41,211 nt of DNA. Origin: a virus. Position numbers and translations under genes: made by a program. The stretch spans positions 1 to 41,211 of IMG/VR virus record IMGVR_UViG_3300009684_001468. One strand, 5' to 3'. The notes beneath the pieces were generated by a model, which made no database searches, had not been told where the DNA came from, and saw only the letters and a list, made by a program, of their open reading frames with translations. This document shows, piece after piece, positions 28,152-41,211 of the stretch; position 1 is the first letter of the stretch; every line of letters begins with the position of its first letter.

Positions 28152-29153
28152 TTATAAATTAAGTGGTGGTAAACTGCCGAATGGAGGGAATACTCTACCA
28201 CCTGTAATACCCCCAATTGGAATACGTCTTTTTAATCCTTCTAATACATCTATACCAGCACGTCTTAATTCTGGTGGTAGATTATTTAGAATGCCTCCAA
28301 AAGCACCATATCCACTTTTAACCGAAACATCTCTAAATGCTGGATTGCCTACAGTAATTTCACCTGCTTTATCTAAGAAGTAATTAATCCAATATCTAAA
28401 TGTAAATGTAACTGTAAATGTTTGAACAGCATTTGCTTCGTAATTGTATTCAACCGGTCCAATAATTTTAGGAAATACATCATACAATTGAACAGCATAA
28501 GTTATATCATCTCTTTCATTACGACTTGCAAATTGCCCTAGTTGATAAATGTTAACATCAGATACATAATTATCATAAAAATTATAATTGTTAGATTGAT
28601 TACTATAGATAGCCGATTGCCATAATTCAAAATAAGATCTTTCTCTTAAAAACTTATCACAATAGAATGTTGCTTGAATATCTGCTGATTTGTGGTCAAA
28701 TGCAATCTTATATGCTGGCCCATGATGTCTAATTTCTTTTGTTTGTATGTCTCTATCAGGCATAGCAATAGCAGAACAGAATGCTCTCACTCTACGACCA
28801 TTTGTTGTTTGTACGGAATTCATTGTTGATGAATTTTTAAATGTAAGTTCTGATTCTTGTGTTGAATTTGAAATACCAACCTGACTTAAATCATCTATGC
28901 CTTGCAAACTACCCAATAAACCACCTGAATTTCCTTTTGGTAAATTAAATTCAACATAAAATCTGGCTTTACGAGCAAATCCTTCTGCCTCATTAACATA
29001 AGATAGAAAACGGCCAATAGTAGTTTCTGGATTGGCACCTGCCTGGTGTCTAAAACGTGGATCTGATTCAACGTTGTCTAATGATCTATCTCTAGGAATA
29101 CCTAATCTGATATCAAAACCACCAATACGAACACCGCCTCTTAATATTGCCAT
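28152..29153 (-). CDS. 54: gp54-like baseplate/tail-tube initiator protein
   Basis: The 333-residue protein has a tail-tube-like fold signature: YVEFNLPKG, then AFCSAIAMPDRDIQTKEIRH, QATFYCDKFLRERSYFELWQ, YDVFPKIIGPVEYNYE and TFTVTFTFRYW. T4 gp54 (320) and gp48 polymerise onto the baseplate and start the tail tube. It is cotranscribed with the preceding structural gene (29153 is the shared base: its ATG overlaps that stop). gp54 versus another tube-like protein is uncertain. Confidence 0.65.
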   Translation of the reverse strand: MAILRGGVRIGGFDIRLGIPRDRSLDNVESDPRFRHQAGANPETTIGRFLSYVNEAEGFARKARFYVEFNLPKGNSGGLLGSLQGIDDLSQVGISNSTQESELTFKNSSTMNSVQTTNGRRVRAFCSAIAMPDRDIQTKEIRHHGPAYKIAFDHKSADIQATFYCDKFLRERSYFELWQSAIYSNQSNNYNFYDNYVSDVNIYQLGQFASRNERDDITYAVQLYDVFPKIIGPVEYNYEANAVQTFTVTFTFRYWINYFLDKAGEITVGNPAFRDVSVKSGYGAFGGILNNLPPELRRAGIDVLEGLKRRIPIGGITGGRVFPPFGSLPPLNL

Positions 29154-29707
29154 TAAATCATACTCCTAGATGCACGATAAACTCCTGTATCGGATGCACC
29201 AACAAATCTTTGAACTGGTAAATAACATGCAATAGCTGCTGCTTGAGCATCAATCTTTAAAAAGTTTGATCGAACATGTTTATACAAATATTTTTTGATA
29301 GTCGGCTTAACTAATGGAATAGTTTTAACTCTACGCCAACTAACGTCAAATTTTGTAGTCGAATCTAATTTATTGTTTGTAGCCCAACGTTGCATATTTT
29401 CTAATAACCTTAATCTCAGTACAGGTGGTAAATAGTGAAAGTTTAATCCACTGAAGCCTCCTGGTATTACTTCTAATGGTAATACTAATGGAAAAGTATC
29501 ATAATAAGGTAAAGTTTTTTTATATTTTGGATCATAAAAAAACATATTCAATGAACCAACATTCGGTCTTGGTGTCAATTTACCTTGTGCCATCAACTTG
29601 TTAGCACTAATTTTATCAGCAATAGATGCAATAGAATTTTTATACCATGCAGCTGATTTTGTAGTGTCGCCTTGTTTACTAACCAGTTTATCTAAAATAC
29701 TAACCAT
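29153..29707 (-). CDS. Conserved virion-associated protein of T4-like marine phages (184 aa)
   Basis: Rich in aromatic and Pro residues: LNMFFYDPKYKKTLPYYDTF, PLVLPLEVIPGGFSGLNFHY, LPPVLRLRLLENMQRWATNN. I recognise the pattern from cyanophage structural clusters but cannot name a T4 counterpart with confidence; some annotations of such genes use gp2-like or hypothetical. A CATAAATA element (29721-29714), one base off the late octamer, lies just upstream of the ATG. Confidence 0.6.
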   Translation of the reverse strand: MVSILDKLVSKQGDTTKSAAWYKNSIASIADKISANKLMAQGKLTPRPNVGSLNMFFYDPKYKKTLPYYDTFPLVLPLEVIPGGFSGLNFHYLPPVLRLRLLENMQRWATNNKLDSTTKFDVSWRRVKTIPLVKPTIKKYLYKHVRSNFLKIDAQAAAIACYLPVQRFVGASDTGVYRASRSMI

Positions 29708-29722
29708 TTACTATATTTATGT

Positions 29723-30157
29723 CTAATTATAGACACCTATATCTTTTTCAGTGAAGATTTTAAATTCTAAATCATTACCTTCACAATAGGTTTTGGCCGC
29801 TGTCCATTTAGCTTGATTTTTAATATATTCTAATTGTTCTTTTAGAAAGTAGTTTGTTTTTTTCTTAGGTGTTTTTGGTGGAAAACATTGTTTATAAGGT
29901 TTAATCTCAACCATATATTTTTTACCAGTTTTTAACTTGAAAATAAAATCAGGAAAATATCTATGAATACGATAATCAATAGGTGAACGATAAACAATAG
30001 GTACTTCTTCACTTGCCCAAAATTCAATTTGATCATTTTTATCTAAATAAACCATCATTCTGCGTTCAAGCATGGAACGATAGACTATTCTATTTGGATC
30101 TCCAATATATTTTTTAGGGTTGATTGGTTTGTATATTCCTTTATAACTCTTTACCAT
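29723..30157 (-). CDS. 4: gp4-like head-completion nuclease-fold protein
   Basis: The 144-residue protein (T4 gp4 is 150) has RIVYRSMLERRMMVYLDKN, YRIHRYFPDFIFKLKTGKKY and MVEIKPYKQC, which together look like a TnsA/PD-(D/E)XK nuclease fold (E, D, ExK). In T4, gp4 completes filled heads before tail joining. It is first in the leftward structural operon and is divergent from the gp48-like gene; GATAAATA on the minus strand (30198-30191) may be its late promoter. Confidence 0.85.
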   Translation of the reverse strand: MVKSYKGIYKPINPKKYIGDPNRIVYRSMLERRMMVYLDKNDQIEFWASEEVPIVYRSPIDYRIHRYFPDFIFKLKTGKKYMVEIKPYKQCFPPKTPKKKTNYFLKEQLEYIKNQAKWTAAKTYCEGNDLEFKIFTEKDIGVYN

Positions 30158-30163
30158 ATCACA

Positions 30164-30171
30164 TATAAATA
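30164..30171 (+). promoter_or_regulatory. T4-type late promoter for the plus-strand baseplate operon
   Basis: TATAAATA lies 32 bp before the ATG at 30203, between divergent genes. A one-mismatch element (GATAAATA) on the minus strand at 30198-30191 could serve gp4. Confidence 0.7.
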
Positions 30172-30202
30172 TTACTATTAATCATAAAGGTATTTATCAA
30201 CT

Positions 30203-31348
30203 ATGGGTATATCAGATATAGTACAAAAAAACTTAGGCAATCTTACAGGAGGCGGATTAGTAGGTATAGCAGGTGGTATTGCTGGTAGTTTATTTGATAA
30301 AGCAAAAAATGGTATGGCACAAAATGCTGCTGCTGCCAAGATATTAAACAAATCACCATTAGAAATAGCAAATGATACAAGTCCTGTTTCTCACATGAAA
30401 TCCAATCCTTATGAATATGGAACGGCATGGTATCCTGAAAATGTACAAAATTTAGGCACAGGTCATTATATGATATTTGATATATTAGAAACTGATACAG
30501 CTTATGGTCAAATTTTTAATAGTATGAAAAAAGGTGCTAATGCAATTGCAAAATCTTTAGGTAAAGATCCCGTAGCAGATCCTGCAGGTTTATTAGAAAA
30601 TAAAATGGGGACATATAAGAATACTAGAAGTAAGGAAGCTGCTCAAGCACGAGTAGTTAAAGCATCATCAGGTATTAATGCTGGTTATGTAGGCGATAGA
30701 CACAGTAGAGTTTGTGATACATTAATTTTATATACGCCGCCAGGATTAAAAACAAGTTATAATGTTTCACATGAAGGAGTAGAAGGAGGATTTTTAGCTG
30801 ATCTTGCAGGAATAGGATCATTATCAGATTTAATGAGAATACCAAATGTAGCTGGTAAACTCGGAATGGAATTAGCAAGTATGGCTCTTGCGATAGTACC
30901 GGGTGCAGGAGATTTAAAGGCAGTAGTACAAAAGGTAACAGGTAGAGCAATTAATCCTAATTTAGAAATGGTGTTCAAAGGTGTACCAATGAGAGAATTT
31001 GATTACACATTCGAATTTGCACCAAAGAATAAAAAAGAATTAGAAAGCGCACAAAAGATAATACAGAAATTTAAATATCACATGCACCCAGAAATTGGTG
31101 CAGGTAATGATTTTATAGTGCCATCACAATTTCAAATAACTTATATGTATATGGAAAATAGAAACTCATATATTCCTAAAATTAGTAAGTGTGTATTGAA
31201 ATCTATGGACTTACAACATGGAGATGAAGGAGTATTCAGTACTTTTGCTTCTGATGCTTTTGGTGCTGCCCCAATTTATACTAAAATGACTTTAAAATTT
31301 GCTGAGACAGAGATTATGACTAAACAAACAATAAACTCAGGATTCTAA
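30203..31348 (+). CDS. 48: gp48-like tail-tube cap / baseplate protein
   Basis: The 381-residue protein has a Gly-rich N-terminus (LTGGGLVGIAGGIAGSLF), NPNLEMVFKGVPMREFDYTF, FAPKNKKELESAQKIIQKFK, QFQITYMYMENRNSYIPKIS and YTKMTLKFAETEIMTK. These match gp48/gp54-type tail-tube initiators, and gp48 is the best fit because of size (T4 364) and its position beside gp53. It ends 1 bp before gp53. Confidence 0.7.
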   Translation: MGISDIVQKNLGNLTGGGLVGIAGGIAGSLFDKAKNGMAQNAAAAKILNKSPLEIANDTSPVSHMKSNPYEYGTAWYPENVQNLGTGHYMIFDILETDTAYGQIFNSMKKGANAIAKSLGKDPVADPAGLLENKMGTYKNTRSKEAAQARVVKASSGINAGYVGDRHSRVCDTLILYTPPGLKTSYNVSHEGVEGGFLADLAGIGSLSDLMRIPNVAGKLGMELASMALAIVPGAGDLKAVVQKVTGRAINPNLEMVFKGVPMREFDYTFEFAPKNKKELESAQKIIQKFKYHMHPEIGAGNDFIVPSQFQITYMYMENRNSYIPKISKCVLKSMDLQHGDEGVFSTFASDAFGAAPIYTKMTLKFAETEIMTKQTINSGF

Positions 31349-31349
31349 T

Positions 31350-31883
31350 ATGTATTTTACATATTTTCCAAAAGGTTTATATGATCTAAAAGGTGATGGT
31401 AATGAAAAACTAGTTACTAACTTAATGCGTAGAGTTAAAGTCAGATCAAAGATTTTAGATCAAGCAAGTTTATATGATCTATATGATGTACCAGAAGGAG
31501 AAACACCAGAGATAACATCATTAAAACATTTTGGTAGTTCTTATTATCATTGGGTAATTTTAATGACAAATAATATTACAGATAGATATTATGGATGGCC
31601 ATTAACAACTTATGAATTTGAACAATATGTAAATGACAAATATAATAATCCAGATGCAATACATCATTATGAAATTGATCAATCAAGTGGTAACATATCA
31701 AGTAATGGGCCTAGTGATTATTCACATAAGATAGAAGTTAATGAGGGCACACCTTTTGCAGTATCAGTATCTAATAGAGAATACGAACAAAGAATACAAG
31801 ATCAAAAGAGACAAATCAAATTATTAAATCCAGCATACTTAACTATATTATTGGAAGAATTTGAAAACTTGATGGCAGAATAA
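31350..31883 (+). CDS. 53: gp53 baseplate wedge protein
   Basis: The 177-residue protein matches T4 gp53 (196): YFTYFPKGLYDL, KHFGSSYYHWVILMTNNITD, RYYGWPLTTYEFEQYV and NDKYNNPDAIHHYE, the LysM-like gp53 fold, and QRIQDQKRQIKLLNPAYL near the C-terminus. It helps join baseplate wedges around the hub. Gene order 4-(48)-53-hub-5 echoes T4's 4-53-5. Confidence 0.92.
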   Translation: MYFTYFPKGLYDLKGDGNEKLVTNLMRRVKVRSKILDQASLYDLYDVPEGETPEITSLKHFGSSYYHWVILMTNNITDRYYGWPLTTYEFEQYVNDKYNNPDAIHHYEIDQSSGNISSNGPSDYSHKIEVNEGTPFAVSVSNREYEQRIQDQKRQIKLLNPAYLTILLEEFENLMAE

Positions 31884-31884
31884 A

Positions 31885-33384
31885 ATGAGTATATATAATA
31901 CACTTGATGCCAGTTCAATAAAAAAACCTGGTGCATATTATCTTTCAGATGTAAGATTAATTTCATATCGTAGTAAACAAGGTGATAGTGAACCTGATTC
32001 TATAGGTATTGATACAATGGTTGTAGATTTAAACATTTATGAAAGTATATTTAATAAAACATTATCAGGCAGTATATTAGTTGTAGATGCAAACAACGTA
32101 ATAGGTAAATTGCCGTTAACAGGTAATGAACGCCTAGAGTTTAAATTCTTTACACCATCACTATCAAAAGGTTACGATTTCACATCTAAATCAGGCAACC
32201 CAATGTACATTTACAAAATAGAAAATAGAGCAAATATTACACCAAGAGCGCAGGCATATCTATTACATTTTTGTAGTAAAGAAATGATGACAAACGAATT
32301 AGTTGTAGTAAGTAATGCACAAACAGAATCTTATTCAAATATGGTCGCTAATATAACTAAAAATGAAGATTTCTTGGCGTCAGTAAAAGATTTTTATTTT
32401 GAACCATCATGGGGATTACATAAACACGTATTTCCTAGAATAAGACCTTTTGATGCTATTGATACATTGTCTTTACAAACACGAAGTACAAAATTTGAAG
32501 GTGCAGGTTATTACTTCTATGAAACATCATCAGGTTTTAATTACAGATCATTAGAATCAATGATGGCAATAGAAGGCAATACGGCACGACCTGCCTTAGC
32601 AAGATTTAGACCTAAACCGGCCAATGTAAATCAAGGCGGTGAAAAAGACATTAAGAACGAAATGCAAATCGCAATAGAATATAGAATAGTAAATCAATTT
32701 GATACATTGAAGAATTTAAGAAATGGTATATTTGCATCTAAACTCATTACACATGATCAACTTAACAAAACATACGAAGAAACTGATTTTAGTTATCATG
32801 ATGAATACGCCAATTTATTTCATTTAGAAACAGGCAAAGATGGAGTAAGAACAAACAATCAAGGTATCTTGCCGTTTTATATAAGAGAAGGACAAACATT
32901 ATCTGATTATCCTGAATCCACATTATATCTATGGTCGCAAACATCAGACACACATTACTCAGGTGATAAACCTTTATACAATCCTGATATGAAAGAGATA
33001 TTACAAAAACGATTATCTCAAAGACTGGCATTACATTCATTTAAACTAGAATTGACTGTGCCAGGATTTACAGGTTTACAAGCAGGCGACATCATTAACT
33101 TTGATATGCCTTCTTACGAACCGGCAGGTGGTTCAGAACCATTAGATCACGACCCATATCTATCAGGACGATATCTGGTTACGTCTATCCGCCACCAATT
33201 AAATCGTAAACAAAACAAACACTTCATGGTCTTAGAGTGCATGAAAGATAGCGTTAAACGACCTTATCCTGAAGAATCCATAGATACTTTTATTAATAGG
33301 GAAAAGGCTAATTCAGGTATCGTAGATATATACGAAGTTGATAAATTGGTTACAGACGTTTCAAGTGGTATATTCAGTATCTAA
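31885..33384 (+). CDS. 27: gp27-like baseplate hub protein
   Basis: The 499-residue protein begins with a strand-rich domain (NKTLSGSILVVDANNVIGKL, PLTGNERLEFKFFTP) as in gp27/gpD hub proteins and ends with the hub C-terminal segment LELTVPGFTGLQAGDIINFD, then YLSGRYLVTSIRHQL. Hub trimers carry the gp5-type spike encoded next. Gene 27 in T4 is elsewhere; here it is linked to gene 5. Confidence 0.75.
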   Translation: MSIYNTLDASSIKKPGAYYLSDVRLISYRSKQGDSEPDSIGIDTMVVDLNIYESIFNKTLSGSILVVDANNVIGKLPLTGNERLEFKFFTPSLSKGYDFTSKSGNPMYIYKIENRANITPRAQAYLLHFCSKEMMTNELVVVSNAQTESYSNMVANITKNEDFLASVKDFYFEPSWGLHKHVFPRIRPFDAIDTLSLQTRSTKFEGAGYYFYETSSGFNYRSLESMMAIEGNTARPALARFRPKPANVNQGGEKDIKNEMQIAIEYRIVNQFDTLKNLRNGIFASKLITHDQLNKTYEETDFSYHDEYANLFHLETGKDGVRTNNQGILPFYIREGQTLSDYPESTLYLWSQTSDTHYSGDKPLYNPDMKEILQKRLSQRLALHSFKLELTVPGFTGLQAGDIINFDMPSYEPAGGSEPLDHDPYLSGRYLVTSIRHQLNRKQNKHFMVLECMKDSVKRPYPEESIDTFINREKANSGIVDIYEVDKLVTDVSSGIFSI

Positions 33385-33541
33385 AACCTACTGAAAGAAT
33401 CTCAGAGTCCGACCGCTCCGAGGGTTTTTGAGACCGCAATTTTTTAGGGCTATGTAGATAACGACTATTTGGCTGGCCGATATTACAGGTACCGAGAGAA
33501 TGGCCTTCTAAATATTAGAGAGAAACTAAGGAAATGAAACT
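33385..33541 (+). other. Intergenic region with sparse signals
   Basis: No gene supported here. It holds TCTCA/TGAGA flanking a GC-rich, T-rich segment (33399-33432) that could form a weak terminator after the hub gene, and two GGCC tetranucleotides (33475, 33502) that begin the GGCC-rich tract. AAGGAAATGAAACT precedes the micro-protein at 33542. Confidence 0.45.
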
Positions 33542-33655
33542 ATGATATACAACATATTAAAGACACCATTAAGAACACTGCAAGGCATATTCTCACTAAG
33601 GGTATGTAAGTGTAAAGGTTGTAAGTGTAAACCAGGCATTTTAAGAAGAAAGTAA
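33542..33655 (+). CDS. Cys-rich micro-protein (37 aa)
   Basis: AAGGAAATGAAACT ribosome-binding region precedes the ATG. The sequence ends with a Lys/Cys block RVCKCKGCKCKPGILRRK containing four Cys in nine residues (CxCxxCxC), as in metal-binding or disulfide-knot peptides. Function unknown; location between hub and spike genes. Confidence 0.5.
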   Translation: MIYNILKTPLRTLQGIFSLRVCKCKGCKCKPGILRRK

Positions 33656-33658
33656 ACT

Positions 33659-33778
33659 ATGAGCGGCCATGTAGATATATTTGTAGATAAAGTCATGCTA
33701 GCGCATGCCTGGCTCATGAATAATATAGAAATGGTAAGTATTTTGGTATTTACTGGTGCGGCCAGCTGGCCTGCGTAG
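33659..33778 (+). CDS. Small hydrophobic protein (39 aa)
   Basis: Starts 3 bp after the previous stop. One amphipathic or membrane helix (NNIEMVSILVFTGAASWPA) at the C-terminus. GGCC occurs three times in its codons. Unrecognised. A further 18-codon frame (33799-33855) leads into gene 5 but is too short to support. Confidence 0.45.
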   Translation: MSGHVDIFVDKVMLAHAWLMNNIEMVSILVFTGAASWPA

Positions 33779-33847
33779 AAAAAAGGAAATGATTACAAAT
33801 GACGTATGTTGAAGTGTTATTATCAGGCCATATAACGAAAGGCCGAA

Positions 33848-34723
33848 ATGAATAACGATAATTATATGGGCCTAGGAGGTTTTTACTGGTTCACTGGTGT
33901 TGTTGAGGATAGAAACGATCCTCTCAAAGTCGGCCGTGTAAAGGTAAGAATCATCGGAGCACACACATCCGATAAAACAATTCTGCCAACTGAAGATTTA
34001 TTCTGGTCGTCTGTAATGTTACCAATTACGGCCAGTGGTATATCTGGGATTGGCCAGTCGGCGACCGGACTACTCGAAGGAAGTTGGGTGTTTGGTTTCT
34101 TTCGTGATGGCCAAAGAAGTCAAGATGCGGTTATATTAGGTAGTTTACCAGGAAGGCCAACACAGGGAGCAAATAGCTCACAGGGCTTTTTTGATCCTAA
34201 TGGAGTTTATCCTCGTTATATAAATGAACCAGATACCAATCGTCTGGCCGTTAACAATGGTGAGAAACCACATCCAAGTCTAGCCACAGATGCGGCTTCT
34301 AGGGTTACAGGAATACAGGCCTATAATTCACAGTGGTCTCAGCCGGCCAGTACCTACGGAGCAATCTATCCATACAATCAAGTATATGAATCAGAGTCGG
34401 GTCATATAGTCGAGTTTGATGACACTACAGATCACGAGAGAATACACATCCGCCATAGGTCTGGTACTCGCCTTGAAATCACGGCCAATGGCGACCAACT
34501 GGCCATTACCAAAGGCGACAACTATATAATCATAGATGGTAATAACAAGGTCTATATAGCAGGTTCATCCGATATCACAGTAAATGGCAATGCAAACATA
34601 AGAGCGGCCGGTGATGTAGGTGTGCTGGCCAGTAATATAGACATAACGGCCACAGGCGATATCAACATGAACGCAGGCGGTGATGTAACCATTCAAGGTA
34701 ACAGAATTGATCTAAACCCTTAG
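33848..34723 (+). CDS. 5: gp5-like baseplate spike protein without lysozyme domain
   Basis: The 291-residue protein has an N-terminal OB fold (FYWFTGVVEDRNDPLKVGRV, SWVFGFFRDGQRSQDAVILG) and a C-terminal repetitive beta-helix (ITVNGNANIRAAGDVGVLAS, ITATGDINMNAGGDVTIQGN) that forms the needle. T4 gp5 carries a lysozyme between these parts; it is absent here. Base composition is unlike the neighbours: G+C about 45-57% in sampled lines and 14 GGCC in 876 bp, against one in the hub gene just before. Confidence 0.85.
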   Translation: MNNDNYMGLGGFYWFTGVVEDRNDPLKVGRVKVRIIGAHTSDKTILPTEDLFWSSVMLPITASGISGIGQSATGLLEGSWVFGFFRDGQRSQDAVILGSLPGRPTQGANSSQGFFDPNGVYPRYINEPDTNRLAVNNGEKPHPSLATDAASRVTGIQAYNSQWSQPASTYGAIYPYNQVYESESGHIVEFDDTTDHERIHIRHRSGTRLEITANGDQLAITKGDNYIIIDGNNKVYIAGSSDITVNGNANIRAAGDVGVLASNIDITATGDINMNAGGDVTIQGNRIDLNP

Positions 34724-34912
34724 TGATAGAAGATGGCCAGGCAGTACTGGAGAACTTTTGCTAATCTATAAAGACTCACCTATGGTTACTACAACTAAGA
34801 CAGGCCGTTAATCTGGTGTAAACCCTTATGTTATTCCTATAGGAAACCTCGGAGGTTCCAGGATCTGTTAAAATGTTGGTGTATCTTTAGTGTCAAAAAA
34901 TTCCCTGGTATA
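34724..34912. other. Intergenic region with inverted repeat
   Basis: No convincing gene. AACCTC-G-GAGGTT (34845-34857) is a perfect palindrome within GGAAACCTCGGAGGTTCC; it may be a terminator or protein-binding site. GGCC occurs at 34735 and 34803. Two frames of 9-12 codons are not supported. Confidence 0.45.
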
Positions 34913-34941
34913 TTGACATTGTTCCAGGTTTGATATATAAT
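34913..34941 (+). promoter_or_regulatory. Consensus sigma70 promoter, leaderless
   Basis: TTGACA 34913-34918, 17 nt, TATAAT 34936-34941. Start predicted about 34948, one base before the ATG at 34949. An in-frame ATG at 34940 lies inside the -10 box and cannot be used on this transcript. Confidence 0.85.
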
Positions 34942-34948
34942 GGTGGTT

Positions 34949-35329
34949 ATGAGATGTCTTATTATACTCTTATTATTATGTTCTAATGCTATGGCTGGTT
35001 CATCAACTGCAACTATGACGGTCACGGTTACAGTACCAGAACCAAACTCTACTCCTCTTCCAAAGAAAGAACCAAGAAATATAGACGTAAAGGATGTTAA
35101 AATTGTTGTAAACGATTCTGCTAATCAAAATTTAAAGGTTATAGAAAATACGACTATGGACTGTTGTTATTGTACAAAGAAATACAGTAATGGTTCTTAT
35201 ATTGATGAAGAAAGAAATTTTTATCTATTTGATAGACAAACAGGCACCTTTGCAATTAATCGTTTGAATAAAGATAATAGATATGCTATAAGATGTCCTA
35301 CTTCTGATTGGGGTAAGCCTAAAAATTAA
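34949..35329 (+). CDS. Secreted CCYC-motif protein, copy 2
   Basis: ATG at 34949 chosen because the ATG at 34940 is within the promoter -10. Signal peptide MRCLIILLLLCSNAMA, then ATMTVTVTVPE and, near the end, DCCYCTKKYSNGSYIDEERN. It shares roughly 25 of 36 residues in this last block with the protein at 17167. The four Cys are conserved between copies. Likely periplasmic or surface-exposed; family not recognised. Confidence 0.75.
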   Translation: MRCLIILLLLCSNAMAGSSTATMTVTVTVPEPNSTPLPKKEPRNIDVKDVKIVVNDSANQNLKVIENTTMDCCYCTKKYSNGSYIDEERNFYLFDRQTGTFAINRLNKDNRYAIRCPTSDWGKPKN

Positions 35330-35333
35330 AGAC

Positions 35334-35362
35334 TTGACATTGTATTGAATTTGGTATATAAT
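35334..35362 (+). promoter_or_regulatory. Consensus sigma70 promoter
   Basis: TTGACA 35334-35339, 17 nt, TATAAT 35357-35362; start predicted about 35369, 8 nt before the ATG at 35377. Confidence 0.85.
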
Positions 35363-35376
35363 GAATAAATAAGCTT

Positions 35377-35538
35377 ATGTACAAATATCTATGGTTGTTA
35401 TGTCTCATAACGGCCTGTACAACGGTTGAAAATACAAGTAACAGTATTGGACCTAATTTAAGTTCATTCAAACAACCTACGGATAATATTTTTAGTACAC
35501 CATCTCCGCCTTATAAAAATCATACGAAAATAAGATAA
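35377..35538 (+). CDS. Small lipoprotein (53 aa)
   Basis: Signal peptide with a good lipobox (LITAC) at about residues 10-14, then a Ser/Pro/Asn-rich mature chain without predicted structure. TAATG coupling to the next lipoprotein. Unrecognised; envelope-anchored peptide. Confidence 0.7.
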   Translation: MYKYLWLLCLITACTTVENTSNSIGPNLSSFKQPTDNIFSTPSPPYKNHTKIR

Positions 35539-35780
35539 TGAATAAATGGTACTCTATTGTTCTGTTGCTTTGTTGTACCTCTTGTGTAGGTTTAACAAGC
35601 ACTAATTTAATCAGTACTCTTTTCACACCAACAAATGTGGTCTCAACTATAACGGATTTGGGTATAGAACAAGAGACCGGAAAAAAGGTATCGGAGCATA
35701 CTCTTTCAGCAGTAACGGCGAAAGACTGCAAGATCAATCTTTCGGATATGACGTTGTGTAAAGATATAACTAAATATTGA
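35538..35780 (+). CDS. Small lipoprotein (80 aa)
   Basis: MNKWYSIVLLLCCTSC reads as a signal peptide with lipobox CTSC, followed by a Thr/Ser-rich chain with two further Cys. Coupled to the gene before it and followed closely by the A-type Fe-S carrier gene. Function unknown. Confidence 0.65.
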   Translation: MNKWYSIVLLLCCTSCVGLTSTNLISTLFTPTNVVSTITDLGIEQETGKKVSEHTLSAVTAKDCKINLSDMTLCKDITKY

Positions 35781-35781
35781 T

Positions 35782-36114
35782 ATGTCCGATATCATTACAT
35801 TAACAGAAAAAGCAAAGGCACATTTAATTACACAGATGGCCATTCACAGAAAGAGTCATGTTTTTTTACAAGCTAAAGGTGGTGGTTGTGCCGGGTTTAA
35901 ATATGATTGGTCTTTTCCTGATACAGTTGATTTAGACAGTAAAGATACTTACATTGTTTTAGATGAGAATTATAATTTAGTAATAGATCGTTATAGTGCG
36001 TTTAAATTAATAGGTATGAATATTGATTATATTGAAAATATATCTGGTTCTACTTTAGAGATCAGTAATCCAAACGCTACATCTACATGTGGATGTGGTG
36101 AATCTTTTAGTTAA
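35782..36114 (+). CDS. A-type iron-sulfur carrier (IscA/ErpA/HesB-like)
   Basis: The 110-residue protein has the three ligand Cys: Cys36 in GGGCAGFKYDW and Cys103/Cys105 in STCGCGESFS, the family's C-x(n)-CxC layout; LTEKAKAHL begins the domain. A-type carriers deliver Fe-S clusters to client enzymes. Marine T4-like phages are known to carry such genes. Nearby Fe(II) oxygenases and RNR are possible iron users. Confidence 0.9.
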   Translation: MSDIITLTEKAKAHLITQMAIHRKSHVFLQAKGGGCAGFKYDWSFPDTVDLDSKDTYIVLDENYNLVIDRYSAFKLIGMNIDYIENISGSTLEISNPNATSTCGCGESFS

Positions 36115-36115
36115 T

Positions 36116-36307
36116 ATGTTAAGACAATATCTTTATATTATTATATTATTGTTTTGTTTAGTAGGTTGTTCTAATGTAAGAATGGCCTGTACTGTTGATA
36201 ATAATTTAAAGGCGATTAAAGATAATAAAGAGACCACACCTACAATCTCTGATAAAGCAAAAGATTGTGTTAATAATCCAACTGTAATTGTATTTAAAGA
36301 GTTTTAA
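36116..36307 (+). CDS. Small lipoprotein (63 aa)
   Basis: ATG at 36116 is preferred over an upstream in-frame ATG (36089), giving the clear signal LYIIILLFCLVGC with lipobox LVGC. The mature chain has two Cys. Its last bases overlap the 3' end of the convergent oxygenase gene by 4 bp. Confidence 0.65.
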   Translation: MLRQYLYIIILLFCLVGCSNVRMACTVDNNLKAIKDNKETTPTISDKAKDCVNNPTVIVFKEF

Positions 36308-36873
36308 GGATTGTTTGCTGACATAGGCACATCAAAGATAAAAGCAATACGTTCTGCTGGCCCTATATTTTCAGCCATGTGATTCTTCTTATTATCAAAC
36401 CAAAAGAATACTCCTGGTTCTACTGTAATAATTTCTTTAGTGGTATCGTCATCGCCATCGTCCCAAACTGTATAACGATATAGGCCTTTAATTGATAAAT
36501 GATAACGATCTTTAGTTGAATAATAATTACCTTGATCAATATGTTTACCTGTAATTTTACCTGCAGGTGTATTTAAAAAAGCACAACGGCCTACTTTTAA
36601 TGATTTAGATGCTAACCATTGTTGAATTGCAATATGTCTTTTAGTTGCATCTGTTGGTACACAAATTTCTGTATCACCAATAAATTCTTCTGGTTTAGAA
36701 ATACCACCCATAACTAATTGAAGTACATCTGCTGTTACAAGTTTACTATGAGGGTCTTGACGATCAACACCTTTTAAGCGACTAGCATTACCCCAATCTT
36801 CTGGGTATTGTTCTAACTGTTCACGTATTTTAGATACGTCTATATTTTTTTCAATAATACGAATATTCTTCAT
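36304..36873 (-). CDS. Aspartyl/asparaginyl beta-hydroxylase-like Fe(II)/2OG oxygenase
   Basis: The start at 36873 is chosen because the in-frame ATG at 36885 lies inside the -10 box of the promoter. The 189-residue protein has GKHIDQGNYYSTKDRYHLSI with a candidate metal His and Asp, then VEPGVFFWFDNKKNHMAENI with the second His, and RIAFIFDVPM. This fits the Asp_Arg_Hydrox cupin family. Substrate unknown; host or virion protein hydroxylation is possible. Confidence 0.75.
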   Translation of the reverse strand: MKNIRIIEKNIDVSKIREQLEQYPEDWGNASRLKGVDRQDPHSKLVTADVLQLVMGGISKPEEFIGDTEICVPTDATKRHIAIQQWLASKSLKVGRCAFLNTPAGKITGKHIDQGNYYSTKDRYHLSIKGLYRYTVWDDGDDDTTKEIITVEPGVFFWFDNKKNHMAENIGPAERIAFIFDVPMSANNP

Positions 36874-36883
36874 GTATAGTTCC

Positions 36884-36912
36884 ATAATATACTTATTTGT
36901 TCATATTGTCAA
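36884..36912 (-). promoter_or_regulatory. Sigma70-type promoter, short leader
   Basis: On the minus strand TTGACA is at 36912-36907, 17 nt, TATTAT at 36889-36884; start predicted about 36877, 4 nt before the ATG at 36873. It overlaps the 3' end of the upstream oxygenase gene. Confidence 0.8.
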
Positions 36913-37445
36913 GCTGTTTTATCTAATGATGGTACGTTATAATCAAATGTCATTACACGTCTATTTACATTATCAGTATTAATATTACCTTTATGCTTAA
37001 ACGCATCACTTACATTTAACATGAACAAATCACCTTTCTTAGGAAATAGATTAAATTCTTCTGTTGCAGTTTTAATATCAAAACCGTTATTATGTTCTTT
37101 AGTATCATCTAGGTATAAATTAAAAACTAAAGATATATTTAAAAATGCCCAAGTATCTCTATCATCATGCCATTTGCGAGCTTTAACATGACAACCATTT
37201 ACGGCCAATTTACGTAGATTTGTATAATTAGAACCAAAAAAACTTACATATCGTTGTTCTATCAATAAACGAAATTCGTCTATTATAGGAAGTATTCTTA
37301 CATCATTATTATAAACATAATCATCTGGTTGATTGTCAGCCTTAATGAAGTTATAATTATCGTAATTATATTTAAATGCTTCTGTAAATGGCAGTATAAT
37401 ATAACCATTAATATAAAAATTATTTAAATCTTTAGTTGTCAACAT
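36909..37445 (-). CDS. Fe(II)/2-oxoglutarate oxygenase (prolyl/phytanoyl type)
   Basis: The 178-residue protein has KARKWHDDRDTW with the HxD pair, LFPKKGDLFMLNVSDAFKHK with a second His, and NRRVMTFDYNVP with the 2OG-binding Arg. That set is diagnostic for the double-stranded beta-helix oxygenase fold. It resembles prolyl- or phytanoyl-hydroxylases common in marine phages. Its start is directly beside the divergent late promoter at 37453. Confidence 0.8.
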   Translation of the reverse strand: MLTTKDLNNFYINGYIILPFTEAFKYNYDNYNFIKADNQPDDYVYNNDVRILPIIDEFRLLIEQRYVSFFGSNYTNLRKLAVNGCHVKARKWHDDRDTWAFLNISLVFNLYLDDTKEHNNGFDIKTATEEFNLFPKKGDLFMLNVSDAFKHKGNINTDNVNRRVMTFDYNVPSLDKTA

Positions 37446-37452
37446 ATACTAT

Positions 37453-37464
37453 TATTTATAAATA
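37453..37464. promoter_or_regulatory. Divergent overlapping late promoters (TATTTATAAATA)
   Basis: TATAAATA on the plus strand (37457-37464) and the same octamer on the minus strand (37460-37453) overlap by 4 bp in the palindrome TATTTATAAATA. Plus side: gene at 37492, 27 bp away. Minus side: gene at 37445, 7 bp away, which would be leaderless. Confidence 0.65.
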
Positions 37465-37491
37465 CTATTACCAATTAACCAAGGAGTTATA

Positions 37492-37665
37492 ATGGGCAGA
37501 AAAAAAACAAAGACTCCTGAAGATATAATTGAAGCTATAAAAGAAAAACAATCTGAAATTGACGATTTATTGTGGGACTTAGAGGACACTATAAGTGTTT
37601 CTTCTGATTCAGATATTTCCGACTTTGATGAGGACGAGGAAATAGATGAGACAGACGAAGAATAA
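37492..37665 (+). CDS. Small acidic late protein (57 aa)
   Basis: AAGGAGTTATA ribosome-binding site. A basic start (MGRKKTKTPEDIIEAIKEKQ) leads into an extremely acidic tail (SDISDFDEDEEIDETDEE). Under the late promoter; function unknown, possibly a DNA-mimic or capsid-associated peptide. Followed by strong hairpins. Confidence 0.65.
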   Translation: MGRKKTKTPEDIIEAIKEKQSEIDDLLWDLEDTISVSSDSDISDFDEDEEIDETDEE

Positions 37666-37679
37666 TAATCTATATTTCA

Positions 37680-37719
37680 GGTGCCTAGGTAACTAGGCAC
37701 CCTTTGACACAACAAAGGG
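37680..37719 (+). terminator. Tandem hairpins after the acidic late gene
   Basis: GGTGCCTAG-GTAA-CTAGGCACC is a perfect 9-bp stem (37680-37701). CCCTTTG and CAAAGGG (37700-37706 and 37713-37719) form a second, 7-bp stem sharing two bases with the first, so the two could be mutually exclusive. No T tract follows. Confidence 0.7.
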
Positions 37720-37723
37720 TTAA

Positions 37724-37882
37724 ATGTTTAACAAATACGCAGGCCTAATCATACTTGGCGTTATATTTTCATTTCTAGCGTGGTTGTATATTTCAATCTA
37801 TTGTCAATCTAAACGTTATAATAAAAAAATGAAAAGATTAAAACTACTATCAAAAAGAATAAGGAGAGGTCGTGTTAGGTAA
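37724..37882 (+). CDS. Small membrane protein (52 aa)
   Basis: One membrane segment (YAGLIILGVIFSFLAWLYISIY) with a very basic cytoplasmic tail (KRLKLLSKRIRRGRVR). Its 3' end overlaps the next gene's GTG start. Unrecognised. Confidence 0.6.
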   Translation: MFNKYAGLIILGVIFSFLAWLYISIYCQSKRYNKKMKRLKLLSKRIRRGRVR

Positions 37883-38123
37883 TTTATTTAAAAAAAGAAA
37901 ACCAAGTTTAAAAAAATTAAAGAAAAAAGCACCAAAGATACCAGACTTTACTTGTCCTGATATAGATCATATTATCGAATACGTGGAAAAAACTGATAAA
38001 TTAAATCGTATTCAATTATCATACTTTAAAAGACGTATGGAAAAATTAAGAACATCTAATGACAAATTGCGAGATAGTGGTGTCTATTGGTATGATGTTG
38101 TAAAAGATTTACTAAACAAATAG
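37872..38123 (+). CDS. Basic hypothetical protein (83 aa), GTG start
   Basis: GTG at 37872 follows AAGGAGAG 4 bp upstream. The N-terminus is Lys-rich (LFKKRKPSLKKLKKKAPKIP); the rest is helical (HIIEYVEKTDKLNRIQ, KLRTSNDKLRDSGVYWYDVV). Unknown function; DNA or protein contact possible. Confidence 0.6.
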   Translation: MLGNLFKKRKPSLKKLKKKAPKIPDFTCPDIDHIIEYVEKTDKLNRIQLSYFKRRMEKLRTSNDKLRDSGVYWYDVVKDLLNK

Positions 38124-38201
38124 ATGGAAATATTAGATATTATTATTATTATTTGGTATGGTCTTATGATAGGTTATTTATTTTTAAATAAAGATAAATA
38201 G
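38124..38201 (+). CDS. Single-pass membrane micro-protein (25 aa)
   Basis: The ATG abuts the previous stop. Hydrophobic throughout (DIIIIIWYGLMIGYLF), ending in Asn-Lys-Asp-Lys. Low confidence because of size. Confidence 0.4.
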   Translation: MEILDIIIIIWYGLMIGYLFLNKDK

Positions 38202-38205
38202 TATT

Positions 38206-38364
38206 ATGTACACACACAGACAGAACGAGCCTCAGTATAATGCAGGCAATTTCCAAGAATATGATTACGAATTAGAATGGATTGAATGTTCTTGGAATAT
38301 CACATATAAACAAATTGAATTAGTAACTGCTTTTTTTTATCCTTGGATTAGAAATTCTGTCTAA
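38206..38364 (+). CDS. Hypothetical protein (52 aa)
   Basis: Polar, Trp/Tyr-rich (YDYELEWIECSWNITYK). Its 3' end overlaps the convergent receptor gene by 17 bp, with no terminator between them. A GATAAATA at 38193-38200 is one base off the late octamer but too close to the ATG for a leader. Unrecognised. Confidence 0.5.
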   Translation: MYTHRQNEPQYNAGNFQEYDYELEWIECSWNITYKQIELVTAFFYPWIRNSV

Positions 38365-40087
38365 ATCCTATTAGAAAATTTCTACCCAATTGAGAATAAC
38401 CATCGGGTCTTTGATAAGTTTTATCGGTAATATTATTTAATTTACCATAAAGAATTGTATTACCTAAAGTGTAATCAGCACTTAAATCAAATGTACTTAC
38501 AGCAGGCATAATTTTATTATTATAAGTTACGCTATCAACATCTATATGAGAACCATAATAATTCCAATTTGCTTTTAAAGATGTATTTTGAATTTTATTA
38601 TATGATGCTTCTAAATTGTTTACCCATTTAGGACGTCTTGTTAATTCATTACCTGAACTATCTTCAGCAATTAAAAATGTATTTGAGTTTTTAAAATCTA
38701 TAACAGATATATTATAATTTAATTTTGTTTCAATACCTTTTCTTGTACTTATTCCAGTATCATTTACATAGGTGTTGTTTTTATAAACAAATAAATGTTT
38801 TATATCACTTTGAAATAGTGCAATGTCTATAATTTTGTTTTTGTAACCTACTTCGTATGTAATACTTTCTTCTGGTATCAATTTTGAATTACCTAAAAAT
38901 CCATAATTGTCTTTACCGTACATTTCATACAACGTAGGCATTTTATAACCTGTTGATACACTTGTTCTAAATCCATTATAGTATGCACCAACTCTTTCAG
39001 TTAATTGATTATCAAAATTACTAGGCATATCATAACGGCCCCCTGCTGTTACAAAAAAATCATCAGATAAAAATTTGATTGCATTAGTATAATAGGCATG
39101 ATTTTCTCTTTTTTTATCTACTGAAGAAACATAATCATCTATGTTAGTATCAAATTTACCATGAGTGAATGTATGTTCTGAACCTACACTAATATCAGCA
39201 AACGTATGAATAGTTGTTTTGGTTAATAATGTTTTGTTATTACTATCGTAAGTATCTTTAACACCATTTTTATTATAATCTCTATTATGATCGGTATTAT
39301 TAATCGTTAATTCATTATCTTTATTTTGTAATGATAGATATTGATTTGAAAATTTATATAAACCTGTATAGTTACGAGTATCTTCTCCTAAGCCATCTAA
39401 ATTAGTATGATTAGTTTGATTAATAAAATTTGATTTTAAATTGTAACCGCTATCTAATAGTGATTGAGTTTGAAATGTATAGTTTCTAAAATGATATGGA
39501 TCTTTTTCAGAACCATTAGGATAAACACTTATATTTTTACTACTTTCATTTTCACCTTGAAAATCTATTATAGTTTTGCCTATTGTTTGTCCTAATTTAA
39601 TTTTTTCATTCCATGTATTGTTAGAACCGTAAGATAGATCAATCCAATTTTTATCATTTGGTTGTGTTACCATATTAACAACTCCACCAATTGCATCTGG
39701 TCCGTAGATACTACTCATTGGACCTTTTATAATTTCTAATGATGAAACTCCAGAAAAACTATGTTGAGTTAGATCATCGCTGCCCGTAGGTGTACTAGCA
39801 TCTTTAATAGGAATACCGTTTAAAGTAAATAATGTATGATTAGAATTTGTACCACGAGTAAAGGTACTACTAAATTGTTGTTTAGGTCCGCTTTGAATTA
39901 TATTTAAACTTGATGATGATTTTATATCATTTGGTTCTATAACGTCATAAGAATATGTTAATGGAAGATGTTCCTCCGCCGTTCTAAATGCTTGTATTGT
40001 AATTTGTGGAATATTTTCGTAAGTGTATTGTGAATACGAAGTATTAGTTACTAATATGAATAATAGTAATTTAATGAATAAGCGCAT
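38348..40087 (-). CDS. BtuB-like TonB-dependent outer-membrane receptor
   Basis: The 579-residue protein is full length for the family (BtuB precursor 614). A signal peptide (RLFIKLLLFILVTNTSYS) is followed by a possible TonB box ITIQA (29-33). The plug matches BtuB: STFTRGTNSNHTLFTLNG (74-91), GSDDLTQ (102-108), then GPMSSIYGPDAIGGVVNMVT (122-141). DYNKNGVKDTYD (270-281) resembles a calcium-binding DxNxxG loop; BtuB also uses calcium in this area. The C-terminus has LNNITDKTYQRPDGYSQLGR and ends in Phe, the barrel-assembly signal. It should bind cobalamin or a similar large ligand in the outer membrane of the infected host. It is last in a leftward operon of tiny genes. Confidence 0.92.
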   Translation of the reverse strand: MRLFIKLLLFILVTNTSYSQYTYENIPQITIQAFRTAEEHLPLTYSYDVIEPNDIKSSSSLNIIQSGPKQQFSSTFTRGTNSNHTLFTLNGIPIKDASTPTGSDDLTQHSFSGVSSLEIIKGPMSSIYGPDAIGGVVNMVTQPNDKNWIDLSYGSNNTWNEKIKLGQTIGKTIIDFQGENESSKNISVYPNGSEKDPYHFRNYTFQTQSLLDSGYNLKSNFINQTNHTNLDGLGEDTRNYTGLYKFSNQYLSLQNKDNELTINNTDHNRDYNKNGVKDTYDSNNKTLLTKTTIHTFADISVGSEHTFTHGKFDTNIDDYVSSVDKKRENHAYYTNAIKFLSDDFFVTAGGRYDMPSNFDNQLTERVGAYYNGFRTSVSTGYKMPTLYEMYGKDNYGFLGNSKLIPEESITYEVGYKNKIIDIALFQSDIKHLFVYKNNTYVNDTGISTRKGIETKLNYNISVIDFKNSNTFLIAEDSSGNELTRRPKWVNNLEASYNKIQNTSLKANWNYYGSHIDVDSVTYNNKIMPAVSTFDLSADYTLGNTILYGKLNNITDKTYQRPDGYSQLGRNFLIGFRQNF

Positions 40088-40181
40088 AGGCCAAACACCA
40101 TAACTCTAGGCCTAATTTGTATAATAAAAATGCAATTACAGGCGCTAATAATAAACTCAAATAAAGATATTTCTCTTCCAT
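40071..40181 (-). CDS. Small membrane protein preceding the receptor (36 aa)
   Basis: Starts 4 nt after the predicted start of the promoter at 40220-40192 and overlaps the receptor ATG by 17 bp, which suggests coupling. One or two hydrophobic stretches (YLYLSLLLAPVIAFLLY, LELWCLAYALIH). Function unknown. Confidence 0.6.
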   Translation of the reverse strand: MEEKYLYLSLLLAPVIAFLLYKLGLELWCLAYALIH

Positions 40182-40191
40182 ATCTTTATTT

Positions 40192-40220
40192 ATTCTATCA
40201 GGAATTGTTTAAATTGTCAA
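40192..40220 (-). promoter_or_regulatory. Sigma70-type promoter for the receptor
   Basis: Minus-strand TTGACA 40220-40215, 17 nt ending TGA, TAGAAT 40197-40192; start about 40185. It lies within the end of the upstream small gene, so the receptor has its own promoter besides module D. Confidence 0.75.
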
Positions 40221-40344
40221 CCTCTTTACACCAATCTTCTATGTCCTCTTTTAATATTACGTTAGAAAAACCTTTATACTTGACAAGGTAACATTTACCA
40301 AATACACCAACATAGTTGATGTCAATAATTTCTGGTTTATCCAT
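40198..40344 (-). CDS. Hypothetical protein (48 aa)
   Basis: Overlaps the upstream gene by 8 bp. Compact sequence with IDINYVGVFGKCYLVKYKGF and an acidic helical end (KEDIEDWCKEVDNL), two Cys. Unrecognised. Confidence 0.55.
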   Translation of the reverse strand: MDKPEIIDINYVGVFGKCYLVKYKGFSNVILKEDIEDWCKEVDNLNNS

Positions 40345-40561
40345 AGATATGATATAACAATGCAACAGAACTTACAATCACTAATGCTCCGTTTGTAATA
40401 ATTAATGCTGATTCTTTCCACATAAAACTTACTATTAACCAAATAGCACTTCCTGTAATAAGAACAATAGGTCCTGCTGGGTAATAACCTAAAGAATTTA
40501 CAACACTACCTATGATCAATATTACAGTAGCAATCCATTTTAGTATTATATCCGATTTCAT
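40337..40561 (-). CDS. Polytopic small membrane protein (74 aa)
   Basis: Three hydrophobic segments (WIATVILIIGSVVNSLGY, GPIVLITGSAIWLIVSFM and IITNGALVIVSSVALLYH), with ATGA start overlap. The pattern resembles small membrane proteins found in marine phages; function unknown. Confidence 0.65.
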   Translation of the reverse strand: MKSDIILKWIATVILIIGSVVNSLGYYPAGPIVLITGSAIWLIVSFMWKESALIITNGALVIVSSVALLYHIYG

Positions 40562-40686
40562 ATTTTAAATTGTTCGTAGATTCCTAACCATTTGGAGAAA
40601 TAATAGAAACCATATATTGAACCATAAGCAGCTGCAATAAAAATACCAGCGTAAACTAGAGCTTTTATATCATCTTTTGTAAACAT
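40558..40686 (-). CDS. Small single-pass membrane protein (42 aa)
   Basis: MFTKDDIKALVYAGIFIAAA, then YGSIYGFYYFSKWLGIYEQF; a membrane segment with aromatic belt. ATG overlaps the previous stop (TAAATG), and an AAGGAG site lies just upstream. Unrecognised. Confidence 0.6.
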   Translation of the reverse strand: MFTKDDIKALVYAGIFIAAAYGSIYGFYYFSKWLGIYEQFKI

Positions 40687-40827
40687 TTAGTTAACTCCTT
40701 TCACATACATTAAGTGTTCAATACCATTTTCTTTTTTAATCAATTGAATATAGTTTTTTCCGTCTTTTGACTTCAAAAACTTCTTGGTATCTGCTTTTAC
40801 CATTTTTATTAGTTGTTTTATTTTCAT
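40687..40827 (-). CDS. Small basic protein (46 aa), first gene of the leftward operon
   Basis: MKIKQLIKMVKADTKKFLKS, then DGKNYIQLIKKENGIEHLMY; a short helix plus beta hairpin. It starts 9 bp after the -10 box of promoter module D, so the leader is only about 2 nt. Unrecognised. Confidence 0.65.
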   Translation of the reverse strand: MKIKQLIKMVKADTKKFLKSKDGKNYIQLIKKENGIEHLMYVKGVN

Positions 40828-40835
40828 ATAGGTAT

Positions 40836-40913
40836 AATATACACTGTATTTTTACTTAAAACAAGCGAAAAAGGCATTTTTTTAAAGAAATAAGGCAACA
40901 AAATCAGTAACTT
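40836..40913 (-). promoter_or_regulatory. Early-type promoter module, copy D (minus strand)
   Basis: Read on the minus strand: AAGTTACTGATT (40913-40902), 8 nt, TTATTTCTTT (40893-40884), 16 nt, CGCTTGTTTT, and TATATT (40841-40836) 17 nt from TTGTTT. One nucleotide shorter than A and C. Drives the leftward operon ending in the receptor. Confidence 0.8.
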
Positions 40914-40920
40914 AAATCAA

Positions 40921-40938
40921 TGTTGTAAAAATACAACA
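40921..40938. terminator. 7-bp hairpin upstream of promoter D
   Basis: TGTTGTA-AAAA-TACAACA, a perfect 7-bp stem with 4-nt loop, at the same place relative to module D as the 12-bp hairpin relative to module C. It separates the leftward operon from the rightward late genes. Confidence 0.55.
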
Positions 40939-40949
40939 ACAAAAATCGG

Positions 40950-40957
40950 TATAAATA
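40950..40957 (+). promoter_or_regulatory. T4-type late promoter
   Basis: TATAAATA octamer; predicted start near 40964, only 2 nt before the ATG at 40966. Confidence 0.7.
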
Positions 40958-40965
40958 GTAAATAT

Positions 40966-41097
40966 ATGATTGATTTTGACAAAATTGATGATTTATCGTT
41001 TATGATTGATGATATTGATTCGAAAAAACTAAAAAAGGCAAAAAATTATGGCAAGAAAAGTAGCAGGAAACACAAACGCATCAAAAAAAGTAAGTAA
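40966..41097 (+). CDS. Small protein with acidic start and basic end (43 aa)
   Basis: MIDFDKIDDLSFMIDDIDSK followed by a Lys/Arg-rich tail that overlaps the next gene by 50 bp in another frame. Would be leaderless from the late promoter. The overlap makes it less certain than its neighbour. Confidence 0.45.
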   Translation: MIDFDKIDDLSFMIDDIDSKKLKKAKNYGKKSSRKHKRIKKSK

Positions 41098-41197
41098 ACC
41101 AAAAAGAACAAGCATTGGCCGTGGATTCCACAGTAAATGTATGATGAACAAACATAAAAGAAGAAGTTTTAAGAAGTATAGAGGCCAAGGAAGATAA
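41048..41197 (+). CDS. Small basic protein of T4-like marine phages (49 aa)
   Basis: Starts MARKVAGNTNASKKVSKPKR and ends SKCMMNKHKRRSFKKYRGQG-R. I recognise the NKHKRRS(F/Y)KKYRGQG ending from short conserved cyanophage and pelagiphage proteins. Strongly basic, with one Cys; probably nucleic-acid binding. Under the late promoter at 40950. Confidence 0.7.
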   Translation: MARKVAGNTNASKKVSKPKRTSIGRGFHSKCMMNKHKRRSFKKYRGQGR

Positions 41198-41211
41198 AAA
41201 ACAAATGCCGG

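Follow-up and report, generated by a model that had tools for sequence, protein, structure and literature searches.

The IMG/VR record IMGVR_UViG_3300009684_001468, a linear viral sequence of 41,211 bases that was analysed over its whole length (hereafter the window), carries a gene for a BtuB-like TonB-dependent outer-membrane receptor. The gene lies on genuine phage DNA, and many of its phage relatives are paired with a membrane protein of the family DUF6580, and some relatives have a cobalamin riboswitch of the AdoCbl-II type. We consider it probable (at about 0.7) that these genes make up a phage vitamin B12 import module, in which the BtuB-type receptor brings cobalamin into the infected cell.

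A BtuB-like receptor encoded by phages

The presence of class I ribonucleotide reductase (RNR), gp32, DNA end protector, tail tube, baseplate and gp5-type genes identifies the window as a fragment of a T4-like phage, the nearest isolate by gp32 being Pelagibacter phage Mosig (76.8% identity; HTVC008M 68.2%). The original prediction, made from the letters of the window, had named chimeric host DNA as the finding that would speak against it. A chimeric assembly was excluded, as contig L002, which comes from a different metagenome, equals positions 28351-41211 of the window at 99.9%, and seven further contigs (L003-L008 and L046) match, at lower identity, the adjacent window sequence together with the gene, of which contigs that end early cover the upstream part. 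The gene was also said to be coded in AT-rich DNA, and it is, to the same degree as the sequence around it.

Both domains of the receptor exceed the Pfam cut-offs (Plug, E 4e-13; TonB barrel, E 9e-26) in an intact frame, and the PDB sequences most similar to it are six of E. coli BtuB (E about 1e-30). This agrees with the complete BtuB-like TonB receptor originally proposed, and the likely signal peptide and the C-terminal Phe were found as well. The top NCBIfam model for the protein is TIGR01779 TonB-B12 (191 bits, E 3e-56), which is also the top model in five of six phage relatives tested and in the sixth, L171, comes second to another BtuB model; the SusC/RagA model TIGR04056 is absent among the 16 NCBIfam matches of the window protein at E<=0.01. 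The family phrog_5687, listed in PHROGs with unknown function, matches the receptor too (E 4e-24) and for this reason probably holds TonB-dependent receptors.

Two finer claims of the original prediction held up in part. The TonB-box-like ITIQA aligns with the box of BtuB, and among 35 phage sequences the residue at BtuB position 8 is hydrophobic in 34 and that at position 10 in 32. For the putative calcium loop, the BtuB ligands, which we take to be D179, D193, D195, D230 and D241, correspond across the phage family to an invariant Ser, Glu or Asp, an invariant Asp, a second invariant Asp and a 90%-conserved Asp one column off; the D193, D195 and D230 positions are acidic in 35 of 35 sequences, and D241 is possibly represented by D236, one column away. 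The residues of both motifs that do not fit are weighed further on.

The predicted structure points in the same direction. An AlphaFold2 model built from an alignment of 50 phage sequences (mean pLDDT 87.3, pTM 0.86) has a folded plug and 22 long barrel strands between residues 148 and 578, with pLDDT below 50 at residues 14-37, which include the TonB-box region; it superseded a first model from 17 close sequences in which the plug was unresolved (pLDDT 63). In the comparison with PDB ten BtuB entries came on top (Z 41.5-42.7, rmsd 1.7-2.2 A, 502-531 aligned residues, 24% identity), the best fit being E. coli BtuB with Z 42.7 and 1.7 A over 502 residues. They were followed by HasR (Z 38.5), BtuB1 of Bacteroides thetaiotaomicron (B. 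theta; 37.9) and ChuA (36.8), and B. theta BtuB3 was likewise among the next-ranked structures. The plug and 22-strand barrel that a BtuB homologue was expected to have are thus both present in the model, and BtuB is the nearest solved fold. Among the predicted viral structures of BFVD the sole match at E<=0.001 was a SusC receptor of 805 amino acids from an uncultured marine phage, 14% identical.

Relatives of the receptor were found on 109 other IMG/VR contigs (77, 13 and 19 over three search rounds with growing alignments, 80 of 82 matches being kept in the first round), indicating that its occurrence in the window is not due to chance. Their identity goes down to 32% with the window protein in the first round and to 26% with the query of the last one, and the contigs reach 328 kb. 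There is redundancy among these contigs: at 90% identity the full-length proteins from the earlier searches, together with that of the window, group into 29 clusters. By a scripted test 99 of 110 frames (109 viral and one from a metagenome-assembled genome, MAG) are not cut by the contig end. The gene is under purifying selection in the pairs of relatives compared, with dN/dS of 0.03-0.25 in 22 of 23 pairs; the remaining pair had no synonymous change and gave no ratio.

A tree built by a quick method compared 36 phage rows with 13 cellular ones (E. coli, five plasmid-borne receptors and seven flavobacterial). A branch with SH-aLRT 100 separates all phage rows from the cellular rows, and several deep forks within the phage group were weakly supported. 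A first tree (52 phage and 14 cellular rows) had given this branch a support of 38; a row that is not a receptor, L202_304, was dropped before rebuilding. A single origin of the phage receptors is likely, and we do not put it more firmly because the cellular sample is small. A pattern scan of cellular genomes (at least 595 stretches) gave, among the matches listed, one confirmed case, the short contig L079 in a Flavobacteriaceae MAG, whose other genes look phage-like and include, by eye, tail-protein-like genes. By tblastn the receptor matched, in INPHARED, two Salmonella contigs and a pair of 254-kb records with the label Acinetobacter phage, besides short records (3-12 kb); no isolated marine phage was among the matches. 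Four INPHARED records with btuB are AFYI01000005, AGRM01000004, CAKLQH020000002 and CAKLQF020000003, and two of these are Salmonella contigs with 16S rRNA beside btuB.

B12-linked genes and riboswitches near the receptor

Clustering of open reading frames (ORFs) was used to compare 111 loci, the 109 viral ones, L079 and the window. DUF6580 stands beside btuB in 68 of the 109 viral loci and in L079, upstream in 59 loci (overlapping the longest btuB ORF in 57) and downstream in 10. That the pairing is kept although the gene order swaps argues that DUF6580 and the BtuB-like receptor share a task. The phage DUF6580 proteins have 128-183 residues and are of a polytopic membrane type, and the three members scanned all exceeded the Pfam cut-off. 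A search of whole records found DUF6580 in 34 of 51; this set (50 of the 109 contigs plus the window), in which PF20221, RF00174, TIGR02504, RF01849, PF03544 and PF02310 were sought, consists of fragments, so that absences from it are weak evidence. A tblastn search of INPHARED (50,697 records) with one phage DUF6580 gave no matches, and the name DUF6580 is absent from the open-licence PMC papers searched.

The cellular homologues connect DUF6580 more directly with the vitamin. In the family to which the Flavobacteriaceae MAG belongs, DUF6580 occurs in 10 of 80 genomes (counting the MAG). Ten cellular DUF6580 loci (L176 and L194-L202) were inspected, one of them cut by a contig end. A BtuB-like receptor adjoins DUF6580 in seven, and in five the cobalamin riboswitch RF00174 (82.6-108 bits) lies between the two genes. 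Two other loci have a homocysteine S-methyltransferase, possibly the N-terminal part of MetH, as the next or second-next gene and a SAM-II riboswitch upstream, and a single locus has neither the receptor nor the methyltransferase. The link of DUF6580 with B12 is direct, through the riboswitch, in five cellular loci and suggestive in four. DUF6580 is thus a candidate B12 membrane transporter in bacteria as well.

In the phages a riboswitch of a different class was found. RF00174 exceeded its cut-off in none of the 51 records, and its lone weak match (21.3 bits, in the record of L139) led us to try the AdoCbl-II model RF01689, which fits: in L139 an AdoCbl-II element precedes the DUF6580-btuB pair with 71.7 bits (cut-off 36.5, E 1.2e-17). 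The genes flanking this operon are those for terminase and virion protein at one end and for SSB, UvsX, helicase and DNA polymerase at the other. A search with RF01689, which covered the window and 100 of the 109 contigs (101 records), exceeded the cut-off in 16 records, with 71.7 to 93 bits, and all 16 elements are located directly before btuB or the DUF6580-btuB pair. Three elements, those of L077, L083 and L093, extend 14 bases into the longest btuB ORF, the true start of which probably lies further downstream. The carriers belong to separate parts of the first tree (the lines of L139/L140, L088/L128 and L134/L135, that of L077/L083 and that of L093/L171/L172), and in an alignment of six AdoCbl-II sequences 11 of the 45 pairs predicted have changed in a compensatory way. 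Rfam scans of the window and six other phage loci gave no cobalamin riboswitch.

Possible users of the vitamin were also found close to the receptor gene. A cluster of the B12-binding/radical-SAM type comprises 39 ORFs in 30 of the 111 loci, within the btuB flanks that were fetched. Three radical-SAM ORFs, two of them from this cluster, were scanned with Pfam at first and four more ORFs later. The two cluster members have a radical-SAM and a B12-binding domain, the latter with 50.8 bits in one and 26 bits in the other, above and below the cut-off of 32.1. Over whole records PF02310 exceeded its cut-off in 12 of 51 and reached E<=0.001 in 18. In INPHARED (tblastn) one B12-binding radical-SAM protein had seven weak matches and another had none. 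These genes are a possible phage-borne B12 consumer. The phage RNR would not be one, in accordance with the original prediction that it needs no B12: the RNR genes of the window are of the class I NrdA/NrdB type, and the model of the B12-dependent class II enzyme, NrdJ, exceeded its cut-off in none of the 51 records. Eight weaker class II matches, in frames of 453-823 amino acids, were read as class I NrdA.

Proposed import of vitamin B12 and the alternatives

By the model that we favour the phage would add a BtuB-type receptor to the outer membrane of its host, and the TonB-ExbBD system of the host would drive it, so that cobalamin (B12 or a close corrinoid) would reach the periplasm. DUF6580, in most relatives, would then take B12 across the inner membrane. 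Riboswitches of the adenosylcobalamin type usually turn expression down at high B12, and in some lineages the AdoCbl-II element would likewise lower expression when the vitamin is plentiful. The imported B12 would feed the B12 enzymes of the host and, in some phages, the B12-binding radical-SAM enzymes of the phage itself. We infer from homology that the window version does the same job despite its lost or replaced DUF6580 and the lack of a riboswitch, and that it would be expressed early. A rise in cobalamin uptake was one of the roles that the original prediction had considered, and it is the one favoured by the DUF6580, AdoCbl-II and radical-SAM genes of the relatives.

The other role then considered, a block to superinfection, did not gain support. 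A receptor that replaces or occupies that of the host, excluding other phages or a colicin-like attack with no part in transport, has in its favour that TonB receptors are common phage receptors, that a solved structure of FhuA with the superinfection-exclusion lipoprotein Llp exists, that the TonB box is only partly kept in the family and that the window subgroup is without DUF6580 and riboswitch. A decoy of this kind would, however, have no use for a protein in the inner membrane or for an RNA that senses the vitamin, and many relatives have the first and some the second; selection was moreover purifying over the whole gene in the pairs compared, and we regard this explanation as improbable, though less clearly so for the window subgroup. 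Descent from a B12 receptor with a change of ligand, to heme, a metal chelate or another cofactor, is unlikely too. TonB receptors can switch ligand, the B12-linked genes that adjoin the receptor in its relatives have been lost from the window, and HasR is the next receptor in the structural ranking, with ChuA below it. Yet the ten BtuB entries stand 3-4 Z units above HasR, and the acidic loop positions that correspond to the calcium site vary little or not at all in 50 sequences that include riboswitch-controlled members. As for bacterial DNA in the assembly, or random gene-transfer cargo that has no role for the phage, the binning of L079 in a bacterial MAG and the INPHARED matches would suit it, and it is nonetheless very improbable given the tail-protein-like genes of L079, the independent contigs that agree with the window, the separation of the phage rows from the cellular ones in the tree, the purifying selection and the location of the L139 operon inside phage genes.

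Several observations weigh against B12 import, above all for the window itself. The 191 bits of the receptor do not reach the TIGR01779 cut-off of 599.7 that defines the BtuB equivalog, and for this reason the protein is filed as a BtuB-like TonB-dependent receptor and not as a BtuB equivalog; two riboswitch-flanked cellular receptors miss this cut-off as well (203 and 141 bits), so it may suit only near relatives of E. coli BtuB. The Ala of the TonB box (position 12) is kept in 12 of 35 phage sequences, the ligand assumed at D179 is Ser in all of them, and the consensus D184 is replaced by Lys in the window protein. Two further BtuB entries, 2guf (Z 37.8) and a modelling entry (34.7), rank below HasR. 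No TonB_C domain was found in the 51 records, all fragments, and the drive is accordingly assigned to the host TonB-ExbBD. AdoCbl-II was not found in 85 of the 101 records; in the window and five subgroup records (G000, G008 and G088-G091) DUF6580 was not found and neither RF01689 nor RF00174 exceeded its cut-off. The B12-domain matches of the window subgroup (16.5-22.5 bits) are below the Pfam cut-off; in the L007 and L004 records they reach 16.6 and 20.5 bits, and the same proteins score 24.3 and 34.8 with radical SAM (cut-off 29.5).

The possible hosts add to these difficulties. A genome survey found no TonB-dependent transporter in Ca. P. ubique, the host of the nearest isolate (PMC3400609), SAR11 was without siderophore or heme uptake in another survey (PMC4771312), and MetE, MetH and MtgBCDE were absent from SAR11 (PMC12478193). 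With no such transporter and none of these enzymes, a typical SAR11 host would gain little from the receptor; either the host is a bacterium other than SAR11 or the benefit is of another kind. Related phages infect OM43, and in the OM43 strain H5P1 the bacterial btuB is itself preceded by a cobalamin riboswitch (PMC9004378). An alpha-type permuted transfer-messenger RNA (tmRNA) gene exceeds the cut-off in nine of the 51 records, including the window and records of 328, 243, 204 and 172 kb. It was dropped as a proof of the host, since an alpha-like tmRNA in two pieces is also present in Melnitz, a phage of OM43 (PMC9004378), and the host could thus be SAR11, OM43 or another bacterium. In the main text of a paper on pelagimyophages (PMC7029224) the term "TonB" is absent.

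A wider interpretation, which we offer tentatively and at somewhat less than even odds, is that these phages run a B12 economy of their own, in which riboswitch-sensed import by the BtuB-like receptor and DUF6580 supplies phage cobalamin-dependent radical-SAM enzymes, DUF6580 being a B12 permease of an unrecognised type. If so, B12 supply would be a resource under virus control and DUF6580 a new class of B12 transporter that serves bacteria too. Most prokaryotes carry B12-dependent enzymes but only about a third make the vitamin (PMC9296465), and a viral import module would tie infection to vitamin cycling, show that phages manipulate active transport in the outer membrane and offer a testable function for DUF6580. 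An early description (PMC2864571) gave the AdoCbl-II riboswitch the entry "Marine", and it is now placed on phage genomes.

Known systems and further features of the window

Compared with known systems, the phage receptor is closest to E. coli BtuB, on which its model superposes, which is its best PDB sequence match and with which it shares acidic residues at three of the five presumed calcium positions. It differs from it by the low identity (24%), by scores below the NCBIfam BtuB cut-offs, by being phage-borne and by its company, DUF6580 in many phage relatives and AdoCbl-II in some. The B12 receptors of Bacteroides and Flavobacteriaceae are similar in that B. theta BtuB1 and BtuB3 are near in fold and flavobacterial homologues adjoin DUF6580 (five of seven with a riboswitch), although the phage rows of the tree are apart from all seven flavobacterial ones. 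A TonB-dependent receptor is also present in the genome of a marine phage, the megaphage Mar_Mega_1, where it is SusC-like and was interpreted as an auxiliary metabolic gene (AMG) for carbohydrate uptake (PMC9723777). In pelagiphage Skadi the label "TonB-dependent receptor" was given to a gene that, unlike the one described here, is located among tail-tube and capsid genes and was taken as a pointer to the adsorption receptor (PMC10504331); the tblastn matches of the receptor included no Skadi record. Mosig itself has, next to gp5, a nutrient-uptake gene beside annotated Asp/Arg hydroxylase and 2OG oxygenase genes, an arrangement like that of the window as far as annotation names can be matched; that gene is pstS-like and annotated as a phosphate ABC transporter, and no BtuB-like match in Mosig was among the tblastn matches. 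Phage nutrient-uptake genes are thus already known, and the system described here would be a new variant of the AMG kind, its novelty lying in a putative B12 import pair that comes with a cobalamin riboswitch of its own. The open-licence PMC literature, to whose abstracts and passages the search was confined, gave us no report of BtuB-DUF6580 operons or cobalamin riboswitches in phages.

The sigma70-type promoter claimed in the original prediction was located upstream of the gene (Table 1). TTGACA is found at an equal distance from the btuB start in all nine contigs of the window subgroup, followed after a 17-base spacer by TAGAAT in seven and TACAAT in two. The micro-ORF between promoter and receptor is likewise present in all nine contigs and may be a replacement or a remnant of DUF6580.

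Table 1 Features of the window discussed in the text (positions in the 41,211-base sequence)
Feature	Position	Strand	Basis or remark
alpha-type permuted tmRNA gene	20056-20325	+	RF01849, 102.5 bits
two oxygenase-like neighbours	36304..37445	-	Asp/Arg hydroxylase-like and 2OG-Fe(II)-like, each below the Pfam cut-off
btuB-like gene, 579 aa, TonB-dependent outer-membrane receptor	38348..40087	-	intact frame; Pfam, NCBIfam and PDB matches, model
beta-barrel, residues 197-553	38429..39499	-	PF00593 Pfam match
loops matching the BtuB calcium-site region (S187, E194, D196, D231, D236)	39380..39529	-	alignment; BtuB ligand numbers presumed
plug domain, residues 59-136	39680..39913	-	PF07715 Pfam match
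TonB-box-like ITIQA, residues 29-33	39989..40003	-	aligned with BtuB positions 8-12
likely signal peptide, residues 1-19	40031..40087	-	judged by eye
36-aa hydrophobic micro-ORF	40071..40181	-	overlaps btuB start by 17 nt; site of DUF6580 in many relatives
sigma70-type promoter TTGACA-17-TAGAAT	40192..40220 (TTGACA 40215-40220, TAGAAT 40192-40197)	-	sequence, subgroup comparison

Other genes of the window and of the related contigs deserve a brief mention. An Fe-S_biosyn protein (iron-sulphur assembly; 53.5 bits) is encoded near the tail genes of the window at 35782-36114 (+), and a small membrane protein of the family DUF6552 (33.6 bits, cut-off 27) at 40337-40561 (-), upstream of the btuB promoter. 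In 10 loci the start of a gene for a TctA-type tricarboxylate transporter coincides with the phage btuB stop codon or adjoins it (in L036 the gene is at 5042-6331, Pfam E 1e-54). Finally, a glutamine riboswitch (RF01739, 56.9 bits) is located at 6912-6960 (-) of L009, a contig that carries a phage btuB.

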